Assembly (NCBI RefSeq): GCF_019039055.1
Contig: NZ_JAHOPB010000002.1
Location: 620,001-684,000, forward strand
From: Reyranella humidisoli
GTDB taxonomy: Bacteria; Pseudomonadota; Alphaproteobacteria; Reyranellales; Reyranellaceae
Direction of reading: 5' to 3'
Length of the DNA stretch: 64,000 nt
In this document: in pieces, positions 49,134-53,724 of the stretch
Position numbering within the stretch: the first letter of the stretch is position 1
Layout: each line of letters starts with the position of its first letter
The notes under the pieces: model-generated
The model's database searches: none
What the model saw: the letters and a program-made list of their open reading frames with translations, nothing else
Told to the model about the DNA's origin: nothing
Translations under genes and position numbers: made by a program

Positions 49134-49149
49134 TGGCACACACCTTGCT
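49134..49149 (+). promoter_or_regulatory. Predicted sigma-54 (RpoN) promoter
   Basis: TGGCAC-N5-TTGCT matches the -24/-12 consensus at every conserved base with the exact spacing. It lies 171 bases upstream of the ATG of an ABC-importer operon for a nitrogen compound. RpoN promoters need an enhancer-binding activator such as NtrC, so nitrogen limitation is the likely signal. No NtrC site was identified by eye. Confidence 0.75.
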
Positions 49150-49165
49150 TCGAAAATGGCAGCGC

Positions 49166-49187
49166 AGAATCGCGCTAGCGCGATTCT
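49166..49187. promoter_or_regulatory. Perfect 22-bp palindrome downstream of the sigma-54 promoter
   Basis: The arms AGAATCGCGCT and AGCGCGATTCT are exact inverted copies with no spacer. It starts 17 bases after the -12 element, in the 5' leader. It may be an operator or a leader hairpin; there is no following T run beyond TT. Similar CGCTAGCG-centred palindromes occur as dispersed repeats in some alphaproteobacteria. Confidence 0.6.
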
Positions 49188-49319
49188 TCTCGGTTGGCGT
49201 GCCGGCATCTTTTGATGGCGGTCGCGGACGAAAGCGACCGGCAGGGAGTTGTCAGTCGCAGACTCGCCAGAACCCAGCAGTTCCAGTTCAAAAATCTCCG
49301 CTGCCCGAGGAGGCTCTCC

Positions 49320-50402
49320 ATGTGTGAACGCATTGGCTGTACGCATTTCCCCAATCTCTCCAGCATGAATTTCGCCGGCGCCGTTGCGCCTTCACGACGA
49401 GGTTTCCTGAAGGGCGTGGCCGCCGTCTCGACCATCACCATGGCGGCCGGTCCGGGTATGCTTGTGGGTGGGCCCGCCCACGCCGCCGCGGGACTCAAGT
49501 CGACGCACGGCACCGGCTTCTGCAATCTCAATCTCTTCCTTGCCCATTCGCGCCAGTACGCCAAGGCGAGCGGCACGGAACTCATCTTCGTGAACACGCC
49601 GACCTCCGCCGAGATGGTGACGTTCCTCGGCATGGGGCAGGTGGATCTCGGGCTCATGCCCTACACCAGCTTCATGGCGCTCCATGACAAGGGCGCACCG
49701 GTCAAGATCGTGGCCGGCGGCGGCGTCGAAGGCTGCGCCATCGTGGCGAGACCCGGCCTCGACACGCCGGAGAAGCTCAAGGGAAAGACGCTCGGCACCT
49801 TCCAGATGGATACGCTGGAGGTCATGCCCTACGACTACCTGAAGAAGCACAACATCGCCTTCAAGGACGTCAAGGTCCGCTACATGGGCAACACACCGGA
49901 GGCGGTCGAGGCCTTCAAGGCCGGCGCCATCGACTGGATTTGCACGATCGAACCCTATGCCTCGGCACTGGTGAACGACGTCAAGGGCGCGGTCATGTTG
50001 ACCAACGGCGTCGATCTCTACGGCAAGGGCTACACGGACTGCGTGCTGGCGGCGCGGTCGAGCCTGATCAAGGACAACCCGGCCGGGCTGAAGGCGATCA
50101 TCAAGAGCATGATGCAGGCCCAGTACGACGCCGAGACCCAGACTGAGGCGGTGCTGAAGGAACTGGTCGGCAAGTACTACAAGACCTCGATGGAGAACGC
50201 CAAGATCGCCCAGGGCAAGCAGCCCGCGGTGGTCGATGCGCGCAGCCAGACCGACTTCATCCTGCAGCGCACCGACAGCGTCATGGAGATGGGCTACATC
50301 AAGAAGAAGCCCGGTCGGGATGCCATCGACTGGACCATGCTCGAGGCGGTGATCAAGGAGAATCCCGACCTCTACGGCAAGCTCAAGTACAAGTCTGCCT
50401 GA
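49320..50402 (+). CDS. ABC transporter substrate-binding protein, NMT1/NrtA-SsuA type
   Basis: A 360-residue periplasmic receptor with an SRRGFLKGVAAVSTITMAAGPG Tat signal starting about residue 26. The start ATG 49320 is eight bases after AGGAGG. Segments NLFLAHSRQYAKASGTELIFVNTPTSAEMVTFLGMGQVDLGLMPYTSF, GTFQMDTLEVMPYDYLKKHNI and EAFKAGAIDWICTIEPYA fit the nitrate/sulfonate/taurine/pyrimidine-precursor receptor group. The 261 bases upstream hold a sigma-54 promoter and a palindrome. The downstream amidohydrolase suggests a heterocyclic or amine-substituted ligand. Confidence 0.91.
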   Translation: MCERIGCTHFPNLSSMNFAGAVAPSRRGFLKGVAAVSTITMAAGPGMLVGGPAHAAAGLKSTHGTGFCNLNLFLAHSRQYAKASGTELIFVNTPTSAEMVTFLGMGQVDLGLMPYTSFMALHDKGAPVKIVAGGGVEGCAIVARPGLDTPEKLKGKTLGTFQMDTLEVMPYDYLKKHNIAFKDVKVRYMGNTPEAVEAFKAGAIDWICTIEPYASALVNDVKGAVMLTNGVDLYGKGYTDCVLAARSSLIKDNPAGLKAIIKSMMQAQYDAETQTEAVLKELVGKYYKTSMENAKIAQGKQPAVVDARSQTDFILQRTDSVMEMGYIKKKPGRDAIDWTMLEAVIKENPDLYGKLKYKSA

Positions 50403-51334
50403 TGGCTGTCGTCGCACGCGACAGCGAGCCGGGCGCTGCCGCCGGGGCATCCCGCCCGGCGGCGGCCTCGCGGCTGATGGCCTCGATGGTGGGGCTGGAC
50501 TGGCTGGCCAGGATCTGGTGGGCCTTCCTCTCGATCAGCCTGTTCGCGGGTCTGTGGGAACTGTGCTGGGCGATGGGCTGGGCAGACGAGAAGCTGCTGC
50601 CGCCACCGCACATCTTCCTCGACAACATCGCCGAGCAGGGCAGGTACTTCAACACCGCCACGCGCTGGCAGGTCGGCCAGTCGATGACCGAGGGGCCGTC
50701 GGCCTTCGAATCGATGCTGATCACCGGCGCCGCCACCACGGCGCGCGTGTTCGTCGGGCTGATCATCGCTTCGGTACTGGCGATCGGGGTCGGCGTGCTG
50801 ATCCGCTACTACCGCTTCTTCGACCGGCTGGTGCTACCCACCATCACCCTGCTGTCGCCGGTGTCGCCGATCGCGTGGCTGCCGGTCGCGATCTTCCTGT
50901 TCGGCATCGGCAACGCACCCGCCATCTTCATGGTGGTGGTGGCGCTGTTCTTCCACATGGTGCTGGCGACCATCAATCAGATCGACACGGTCAACACCAA
51001 CCTGATCAACGTGGCGCGCACCATGGGCGCTTCCAAGGCGCAGATCTATGCGCGCGTCATCGTTCCTGCGATCCTGCCCGGCATGCTCCAGGTGCTGCGC
51101 ATGAACCTGTTCGGTGCCTGGATGGTGGTACTGGTCGCTGAATCTACCGGCGTCGGGTACGGCATGGGCCAGGTGATCATGCTGGCGCGCAACACCTTCA
51201 ACCCGTCGCTGGTGTTCTTCACCATCGCCGTGATCGGCGTGCTGGGCTTCACCTTCGACTGGCTGCTGCGTCTGGCGCAGCGCCGCATCCTCTACTGGCT
51301 GCCCGATACCGTGGAGAGACTGCGTGTCCTCTGA
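50402..51334 (+). CDS. ABC transporter permease, SsuC/NrtB type
   Basis: A 310-residue inner-membrane permease with about six helices and the EAA-like loop VARTMGASKAQIYARVIVPAILPGMLQVLRMNLFGAWMVVLVAE. An N-terminal Ala-rich cytoplasmic tail of about 30 residues precedes the first helix. Its ATG overlaps the receptor stop by one base (TGATG). It is longer than SsuC by an insert near residues 65-95 (QGRYFNTATRWQVGQSMTEG), which may be periplasmic. Confidence 0.92.
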   Translation: MAVVARDSEPGAAAGASRPAAASRLMASMVGLDWLARIWWAFLSISLFAGLWELCWAMGWADEKLLPPPHIFLDNIAEQGRYFNTATRWQVGQSMTEGPSAFESMLITGAATTARVFVGLIIASVLAIGVGVLIRYYRFFDRLVLPTITLLSPVSPIAWLPVAIFLFGIGNAPAIFMVVVALFFHMVLATINQIDTVNTNLINVARTMGASKAQIYARVIVPAILPGMLQVLRMNLFGAWMVVLVAESTGVGYGMGQVIMLARNTFNPSLVFFTIAVIGVLGFTFDWLLRLAQRRILYWLPDTVERLRVL

Positions 51335-52151
51335 AGATGCCCCGCATTTTTCCTCAAAGGACGCCGTGGTCTGCCGCGGCGTCGGCAAGACCTGGGCGGC
51401 TGGCACGAAGCGAGCGCACAACGCGCTGACGGACATCGACCTCGATGTCGCGCCGGGCGAGTTCGTGGTCTTCCTCGGCCCCTCGGGCTGCGGCAAGAGC
51501 ACGTTGCTCTACCTGATCGCCGGCCTCGAGGACGCGACCGAGGGCAAGCTCTGGTCGTTCGGCGACCTGGTGGAAACACCATCGCCCGAGCGCAGCCTGA
51601 TCTTCCAGGAGACCTCGCTCTTTCCGTGGCTGACGGTGTGGGAAAATGTGAGCTTCGGCCTGTCGATCCGCGGCGCGAGCAAGGACGAACGCCGCACCGT
51701 CGCAGCGGAAGCCCTGCAGCGGGTCGGCCTGAAGGCGGCCATGGACAAGCGGCCCGACGAGCTGTCAGGCGGCATGCGCCAGAGGGTCGCCGTGGCCCGC
51801 GCGCTCGCCATGCGGCCGAAGGTCCTGCTGATGGACGAGCCCTTCGCGGCCCTGGACGTCCAGACGCGCGCGCGCATGCAGGATTTTCTGCTCGACGTGT
51901 GGCGCGATTCGGCCGCCTCGGTGCTGTTCGTCACCCACCATATCGACGAGGCGGTGGCGCTGGCCGACCGGGTCGTCGTCTTCACGTCGCGGCCGGGCCG
52001 CATCAAGACCATCGTGCCGATCGATATGCCCCGGCCGCGCAATCTCTTCTCGCGCGAGGCGGAGGCTCTCCGCATCCAGCTCACCGACCTGCTCCGCGAC
52101 GAAGTCGATCGTGCCTTCGCCGAGCAGGAAGCGCTCACCGCCACCGCCTGA
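51324..52151 (+). CDS. ABC transporter ATP-binding protein, SsuB/NrtD type
   Basis: A 275-residue ATPase. Walker [53 protein letters not shown], Walker B VLLMDEPFAALDVQTR and VTHHIDEAVALADRVVV are complete. The start is GTG 51324, inside the permease gene (11-base overlap), the earliest start that keeps the N-terminal strand. It completes the receptor-permease-ATPase importer and is followed 31 bases later by the amidohydrolase gene. Confidence 0.93.
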   Translation: MSSEDAPHFSSKDAVVCRGVGKTWAAGTKRAHNALTDIDLDVAPGEFVVFLGPSGCGKSTLLYLIAGLEDATEGKLWSFGDLVETPSPERSLIFQETSLFPWLTVWENVSFGLSIRGASKDERRTVAAEALQRVGLKAAMDKRPDELSGGMRQRVAVARALAMRPKVLLMDEPFAALDVQTRARMQDFLLDVWRDSAASVLFVTHHIDEAVALADRVVVFTSRPGRIKTIVPIDMPRPRNLFSREAEALRIQLTDLLRDEVDRAFAEQEALTATA

Positions 52152-52182
52152 TTCAAGAGTCCCAGACAAAGGAGAAGCCGAT

Positions 52183-53724
52183 ATGGCCACCAGCCTGATC
52201 CGTAGCCGCGCAGCCATCACGGGCACCAAGGACCGTTTCACCTGGAACGAGATCAAGGACGGCGCCGTTCTGCAGGAAGACGGCGTCATCGTCGAGGTCG
52301 GCACCTACGACGATCTGCATGCCAAGCATCCGACGGTGCCGGTGATCGGCACGGGCAAGGAGATCCTGCTGCCGGGCTTCGTCAACGGTCATCACCATGT
52401 CGGGCTGACGCCGGTCCAGCTCGGCTCGCCCGACATGCCGCTGGAGCTGTGGTTCATCACCCGCATGGTGATCCGCAACCTCGACCTCTATCTCGATACG
52501 CTCTACTCGGCCTTCGAGATGATCGGCTCGGGCATCACCACCGTGCAGCACATCCAGGGCTGGATGCCCGGCACCCTGCCCGACGTCGAGAAGCGCGCAA
52601 CCGAGACCATCAAGGCCTATGAAGATGTCGGCATGCGCGTCAGCTACTGCTATGCGGTGCGCGACCAGAACCGTCTCGTCTACCAGGCCGACGAGGAGTT
52701 CGTGCGCAGCCTGCCGCCGGAGCTGCGCGGCCCGATGCAGCGCTGGTTCGACCGCTTCAAGATGAGCCTCGACGATGCGATGGACATGTTCAAGTCGTTC
52801 CATTCGCAGCACCACAACAAGCGCCGCGTGAAGATCCAGCTGGCGCCGGCCAATCTGCACTGGTGCTCGGATCCCGCGCTCACCAAGCTCAGCGACGCGT
52901 CGGCCAAGTACAACGTGCCGATGCATATGCACCTGCTCGAGACCGCCTATCAGAAGGAATATGCCTGGCGGCGGGGCAACTGCACCGCGCTGGAATACAT
53001 CGATCGCTTCGGGATGGTGAACGAGCGGCTGACCCTGGGCCACGGCGTTTGGCTGAACGAGAAGGACATCGACCGGCTGGCCGAGGCCAAGGGCTGCGTC
53101 TGCCACAATTGCTCGTCCAACTTCCGCCTGCGCTCCGGCGTCGCTGCGCTCAATCACTTCGAGAAGAAGGGCATCAACACCGCGATCGGCCTAGACGAGG
53201 CCGGCATCAACGACGATCGCGACATGCTGCAGGAGCTGAAGCTGGTGCTGCGCGCGCATCGCGTGCCGGGCATGGTCGAGGCCGACGTGCCGACCATGGC
53301 GCAGGTGCTGCGCATGGCGACCGTCGGTGGGGCGAAGACGACGCCGTTCGGCGATAGCATCGGCACGCTGGAGGTCGGCAAGGCCGCCGACATGGTGCTG
53401 ATCGACTGGGATAGCGTGGCCTATCCCTATCTCGACGAGATGACCCCGACGCTCGACGCGGTCGTGCAGCGCGCCAAGCAGCAGGCCGTCACGATGACGA
53501 TGTGCGACGGCGAGGTGATCTACAAGGACGGGCTCTTCACCAAGGTCGACAAGACCGCCGCGCTGAAGGCGCTGCACGACGATCTCAGCAAGGCCCTGGC
53601 CGACGACGAGGTCGAGCGCCGCAAGCTCTCGGTCGCGCTGCTGCCGCACGCCCGCAAGTTCTACGAGAACTACATGGACCCGTCGAAGCACCAGCCGTTC
53701 TACAGCCCGAGTTCGCGAGTGTGA
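52183..53724 (+). CDS. Amidohydrolase-superfamily deaminase/hydrolase (TRZ/ATZ-like)
   Basis: A 513-residue metal-dependent hydrolase. ATG 52183 follows AAAGGAG. The beta-strand 1 metal pair is in FVNGHHHVGLTP (His70/His72), further ligands are in MHMHLLET and LGHGVWL, and the catalytic Asp is in IGLDEAGINDD. The C-terminal sandwich includes TLEVGKAADMVLIDWDSVAYPYLDEM. This is the subclass of s-triazine, guanine, cytosine and 8-oxoguanine deaminases. It is the last gene of the importer operon, so it probably acts on the transported compound in the cytoplasm. A C-terminal extension of about 60 residues is longer than in most relatives. Confidence 0.91.
   Translation: MATSLIRSRAAITGTKDRFTWNEIKDGAVLQEDGVIVEVGTYDDLHAKHPTVPVIGTGKEILLPGFVNGHHHVGLTPVQLGSPDMPLELWFITRMVIRNLDLYLDTLYSAFEMIGSGITTVQHIQGWMPGTLPDVEKRATETIKAYEDVGMRVSYCYAVRDQNRLVYQADEEFVRSLPPELRGPMQRWFDRFKMSLDDAMDMFKSFHSQHHNKRRVKIQLAPANLHWCSDPALTKLSDASAKYNVPMHMHLLETAYQKEYAWRRGNCTALEYIDRFGMVNERLTLGHGVWLNEKDIDRLAEAKGCVCHNCSSNFRLRSGVAALNHFEKKGINTAIGLDEAGINDDRDMLQELKLVLRAHRVPGMVEADVPTMAQVLRMATVGGAKTTPFGDSIGTLEVGKAADMVLIDWDSVAYPYLDEMTPTLDAVVQRAKQQAVTMTMCDGEVIYKDGLFTKVDKTAALKALHDDLSKALADDEVERRKLSVALLPHARKFYENYMDPSKHQPFYSPSSRV

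Follow-up and report, generated by a model that had tools for sequence, protein, structure and literature searches.

NMT1-motif RNAs are small proteobacterial leader RNAs that often stand before NMT1/THI5-like or tauA-type transporter genes (PMC7373994), and amidohydrolases resembling 8-hydroxyguanine/guanine deaminases are also found in their vicinity (Yu and Breaker 2020, PMC7373994). Their core is AGAAGCGUUC ... CGGAAAUUGCUCC, and their fold is a single rod that contains two internal junctions (Xu et al. 2021, PMC8266621). Among known systems, this xanthine riboswitch comes nearest to the Reyranella humidisoli locus described here, which it resembles in its transporter-gene context and in the deaminase-like amidohydrolases nearby, although its core and fold are unlike those of the leader at this locus (CAGCGC-P1-nGGUNGGCGUGCCn). 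Nitrogen-scavenging operons under NtrC and RpoN offer a second comparison: as here, they join a sigma-54 promoter to an importer and an ammonia-releasing type of enzyme, whereas in the present locus a structured leader RNA begins right where transcription is predicted to start.

At the protein level, the importer belongs to the same receptor, permease and ATPase families as TauABC, SsuABC, NrtABCD and the pyrimidine-binding ThiY/Thi5, but it falls below the equivalog cut-offs, its receptor shares 14-20% structural identity with theirs, and its genes form a single string with that of an amidohydrolase. That enzyme has the TRZ/ATZ fold and the metal and catalytic residues of AtzA, TrzN, Vcz and the 8-oxoguanine deaminase PRK08203, yet it scores far below the NCBIfam equivalog cut-offs and bears an extra tail. 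Importer and enzyme are of ordinary families, and the operon belongs to a known kind of system; the most unusual part of the locus is the leader, which is absent from Rfam 15 and tied to this one operon.

The operon and its sigma-54 promoter

The window, by which we mean the whole 64,000-nt stretch of DNA analyzed, contains on its plus strand the genes for receptor, permease, ATPase and amidohydrolase, in the order given by the original prediction (Table 1), and all four products match Pfam families above cut-off (NMT1_2/NMT1, BPD_transp_1, ABC_tran and Amidohydro_1). The receptor ATG is in frame with an open reading frame at 49194-50402, and the Tat signal of its product matches TIGR01409 above cut-off. 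The C-terminal extension ascribed to the amidohydrolase is real: a tail of approximately residues 464-513 is conserved in the subfamily, with F493, Y494, Y497, P505, Y507 and S510 nearly invariant.

The same prediction had placed an exact TGGCAC-N5-TTGCT promoter 171 bases before the receptor and had proposed RpoN control. The site, TGGCACACACCTTGCT (TGGCAC-ACACC-TTGCT), fits the GG-N10-GC arrangement and the pattern TGGCAC-N5-TTGCW exactly at 49134, ends at 49149, 171 bases before the ATG at 49320, and is the sole exact match in the window. Across the 5.5-Mb genome, the exact pattern occurs three times, against five for the reversed control, so a bare match is at chance level and proves nothing alone. 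A scan of genome contigs gave 75 related loci, mostly from Reyranella, with others from Roseomonas, Methylobacterium, Bosea, Rhizobium, Prosthecomicrobium, Vineibacter and Belnapia. Using phylogenetic footprinting over the 60 homologous loci that had an upstream region (about half come from Reyranella, and they are not all independent), we found an exact site no more than 260 nt from the start of the receptor gene in 37, compared with 0.01 in first-order resampled controls; a site with at most one mismatch, keeping GG and GC, was present within the same distance in 48 of the 60, against 0.23 expected from resampled controls. The leader-bearing loci with at most one mismatch use 28 different 5-nt spacers. 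By this computation the promoter is conserved far above controls, indicating that the site is real.

Besides RpoN, the genome encodes four clear activators of sigma-54, among them NtrC and NtrX, which both score above cut-off; an NtrB-like protein adjoining ntrC scores 231 bits, just under a cut-off of 240. The conserved site, together with rpoN, ntrC, ntrX and the ntrB-like gene, supports the proposed RpoN control. By eye, no obvious NtrC-binding sites were seen upstream of the operon; we infer that NtrC is probably its activator.

Table 1. Positions of the operon, its promoter and its leader RNA in the window
Feature	Position	Strand	Basis or remarks
Sigma-54 promoter, -24 TGGCAC, 5-nt spacer, -12 TTGCT; predicted +1 near 49160	49134..49149	+	exact consensus, conserved
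Conserved structured leader RNA, riboswitch-like candidate	49160..49204	+	leaders in 57 loci, covarying stems, models R1-R3, no Rfam match
5' tail CAGCGC, nearly invariant, first base varies	49160..49165	+	alignment
P1 hairpin, AG ... CU, sequence and loop variable	49166..49187	+	compensatory change
P2 hairpin, here CGG-UUGGCGUG-CCG; closing pair covaries, loop nearly invariant	49191..49204	+	
Ribosome-binding site GAGGAGG	49307..49313	+	sequence
Receptor (substrate-binding protein)	49320..50402	+	NMT1/SsuA/TauA fold; Tat signal SRRGFLKG; N-terminus MCER
Permease	50402..51334	+	Pfam BPD_transp_1
ATPase, nitrate/taurine type	51324..52151	+	Pfam ABC_tran
Amidohydrolase, TRZ/ATZ fold	52183..53724	+	Pfam Amidohydro_1; H70, H72, H250, E253, H287, D338 invariant in the subfamily
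Conserved C-terminal tail of amidohydrolase	53572..53721	+	helix at residues 474-493; last 10 residues low confidence

Structure of the leader RNA

Aligning the upstream regions revealed a second conserved block just past the promoter, which consists of CAGCGCAG, a variable stretch and then GGTTGGCGTGCC. The earlier reading of the locus had the promoter and the genes right and overlooked this element, a structured leader at the predicted start. Its general form is a CAGCGC tail followed by the variable hairpin P1 and a P2 hairpin, nGG-UNGGCGUG-CCn, with an 8-nt loop. In 51 of 53 loci the leader starts 11-15 nt downstream of the -12 C, which would make it the first part of the transcript.

Both hairpins are supported by the way their sequences change. 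For P1, the 57 leaders contain 36 distinct interiors, and these form 194 stacked pairs inside AG/CU when counted on untrimmed sequences selected by exact matches to the invariant blocks, compared with 59.8±8.6 for shuffled interiors (highest of 2000 shuffles, 93). The interior between AG and CU ranges from 9 to 62 nt with pairing kept. Cells in which both sides of a P1 pair had changed numbered 19, against 4.9 after shuffling, in a model-fitted alignment. P1 pair counts made with model R1, which was built on sequences trimmed by hand, or with alignment A7, which had been trimmed to suit P1, are biased in favor of this hairpin. For P2, the closing pair in 26 distinct rows, taken from the same untrimmed selection, is C-G in 14, G-C in 6, U-A in 2 and U-G in 1; these four standard pair types account for 23 of the 26 rows (null 13.5±1.9, 0 of 5000). 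Covarying helices in the 5' untranslated region are thus found in association with a single operon, and comparative evidence supports well the view that the leader is a conserved structured RNA.

A further interaction is possible. In the tail, GCGC (49162-49165) could pair with GCGU of the P2 loop (49197-49200), which would give a pseudoknot; because these bases never vary, covariation lends this pairing no support. Two other pairings were considered and rejected: a nested GCGC/GCGU helix around P1, which was used in models R1 and R2, never varies and is not predicted by nearest-neighbor folding, and an alternative CAGC/GUUG pairing is broken in two loci (L015 and L054).

Distribution and possible function of the leader

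Leaders were found in 22 of 61 relatives searched, and all 22 genomes also carry the amidohydrolase; genomes lacking the amidohydrolase lack the leader too. Some assemblies with the amidohydrolase are without a leader, several of them fragmented, and at two loci (L009 and L014) the importer genes are missing and so is the leader. R. humidisoli itself has one copy. Scans of approximately 1,170 further genomes, with overlaps between scans, gave strong matches before this receptor gene wherever the context was read, and the class, phylum and order scans turned up no other genes behind the leader that might serve as a clue to a ligand. The few near-threshold matches had none of the operon genes beside them, where checked, and weaker matches lacked related genes or a stem. 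The leader is therefore restricted, in these searches, to the position before this receptor gene, in alpha-proteobacteria and one beta-proteobacterium, L140, so called from its place in the sampled tree. L140 has a stem of wholly different sequence that nevertheless pairs. Leader-free homologues in Burkholderia, Klebsiella, Sodalis and Rhizobium indicate that the gene set also exists without it. Bacteria that carry promoter, operon and leader together form a group from soil and water.

The conserved block could instead be a DNA operator downstream of the promoter, and its mostly fixed spacing to the sigma-54 site would suit such a role. We consider this very improbable: P1 varies in both sequence and length while keeping its pairing, there is no dyad between the two invariant blocks, and the block is separable from the promoter, as seen on a Salipiger plasmid (L147), where 85 nt separate the leader from the sigma-54 site and approximately 45 nt are added to P1, and in L141, where a leader is present and no sigma-54 site was found. 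The comparison thus favors an RNA element over a part of the promoter or an operator.

The receptor N-terminus MC[DE]R before the Tat signal (49320-49331, codons ATGTGYGA.CG) is nearly invariant in leader-bearing operons. L054 reads MCAR despite its leader; the motif is missing from the leader-free Burkholderia, Klebsiella and Sodalis homologues, and the Rhizobium locus L071 has it without a leader.

By the libraries searched, the leader is an unclassified RNA, which may have been described outside Rfam. Rfam 15 returned no family match at gathering score and no NMT1-motif match at E up to 10, and we found no description of the motif or the operon in the open-licence literature. Identity with the NMT1-motif xanthine riboswitch was rejected, as the core sequence differs and Rfam gave no match. 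Neither a ribosome-binding-site switch nor a terminator is evident after the leader, which lies 116 nt from the start codon here and 55-299 nt from it in other loci; as candidate intrinsic terminators, we found only weak consensus matches (2, against 0.9 expected).

A constitutive 5' element that acts on mRNA stability or translation and binds no ligand would fit this lack of an obvious expression platform, and at the predicted +1, where the leader lies in most loci, a 5' hairpin would protect the mRNA. We nevertheless hold such a role to be fairly unlikely, given that a stability hairpin needs neither an invariant tail nor an 8-nt loop, that the Salipiger leader is internal and that the leader is restricted to one operon. 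The leader might also be bound by a protein. Other nitrogen operons use ANTAR antiterminators of the NasT/AmiR type, whose targets are pairs of hairpins with six-nucleotide loops, and a protein of this kind is one candidate. The leader does have two tandem hairpins in a nitrogen context, and the genome encodes one ANTAR protein (C1:1004837-1004992), but its gene is on a different contig from the operon, the P1 loops vary in length and sequence, the P2 loop has eight nucleotides instead of six, and the invariant tail would be left unexplained. Binding by a protein is improbable in our estimation.

Our best guess is that the leader is a riboswitch for the imported compound. In its fullest form this reading proposes a new riboswitch class that has a pseudoknot between tail and P2 loop, lies at the very start of a transcript made with sigma-54 and would sense either the heterocycle taken up or its product, with general nitrogen status read by the promoter and the specific compound by the RNA, in series; to this specific proposal we give somewhat less than an even chance. 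If the leader is a riboswitch, a ligand screen on the 45-nt RNA would be a direct route to the substrate, in place of guessing enzyme substrates, and the locus would present an aptamer in an unusual place, among the very first nucleotides of a message transcribed with sigma-54.

Candidate substrates and gene neighborhoods

The predicted structure of the amidohydrolase (mean pLDDT 83.6) is closest to AtzA (4v1x), the isocytosine deaminase Vcz (7ww2) and TrzN (4lh8), the TRZ/ATZ matches having TM-scores of approximately 0.77-0.86 (normalized by target) and approximately 20-23% structural identity. The enzyme combines the Amidohydro_1 fold with the HxH, H, E, H and D residues of the TRZ/ATZ family, and its six invariant residues (Table 1) would, by analogy with that family, have metal-binding or catalytic roles. 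It matched none of the named TRZ/ATZ equivalogs (guanine, 8-oxoguanine and MTA/SAH deaminases and AtzA), the best score being 189 bits against an NCBIfam cut-off of 522. The original call of a TRZ/ATZ-like amidohydrolase therefore stands as to fold and residues; its label of deaminase is more tentative, as this fold is shared by AtzA and TrzN, which take off chlorine. The receptor (mean pLDDT 79.2) is closest in predicted structure to TauA, SsuA and Thi5.

Taken as a whole, our explanation is that a sigma-54-dependent, probably NtrC-activated operon imports an amino-substituted nitrogen compound from which the amidohydrolase frees ammonia, with the leader adding control at the RNA level; we judge it about as probable as its negation. 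Under low nitrogen, NtrC would become active and drive sigma-54 transcription, a step that the conserved promoter supports. The transcript would open with the two-hairpin leader (CAGCGC tail, variable P1, and P2 with its loop UNGGCGUG), which would adjust expression, in the simplest case through binding of the imported compound or of its product. The importer would then take up the compound, and the amidohydrolase, to judge from its fold, would release ammonia. Alternatively, the enzyme may remove another leaving group or open a ring, in an operon serving carbon use or detoxification and not nitrogen. Its fold is the same as that of the dechlorinases AtzA and TrzN, and some lineages add amide and C-N hydrolases, but sigma-54 control with ntrC present favors nitrogen, and we regard this alternative as fairly unlikely. 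Nitrogen scavenging is a plausible role for the operon.

Neighboring genes differ between lineages. Elsewhere, recurring neighbors encode a CN hydrolase, an Asp/Glu/hydantoin racemase, an AMDase (arylmalonate-decarboxylase)-like protein, an AS amidase, a PuuE-like allantoinase relative, an M20 hydrolase and a dihydropyrimidinase. Such neighbors, from the breakdown of cyclic ureides, pyrimidines and amides, point to a cyclic ureide, a pyrimidine or a similar amino-heterocycle, and we infer that the most probable substrate is a small ring resembling a pyrimidine, a hydantoin or a purine.

Several homologous loci depart from this arrangement. In Roseomonas, L040, L042, L045, L059 and related loci encode amidohydrolase orthologues with 73-74% identity, without the ABC importer; beside them lie nitrile-hydratase-like alpha and beta genes, an SDR gene and a tripartite-transport receptor gene. 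As a clue to the substrate, the nitrile hydratase genes are a lead only. On a plasmid of the cyanobacterium Leptolyngbya (L143, 6639-10545), a 52% identical amidohydrolase is encoded beside an AMDase-like protein and an amidase, with neither importer nor leader. In the Burkholderia, Paraburkholderia and Klebsiella plasmid versions (L142, L144 and L145), a second receptor-like gene and one for a GntR regulator are present in the leader's stead, and at L142 and L144 a sigma-54 site with one mismatch still precedes the first receptor gene. At L147 (5046-12062) and L148 (5237-16452), the operon is found close to genes for a spermidine/putrescine-type importer, a PuuE-like protein and a GntR regulator, surroundings that possibly constitute a combined degradation island.
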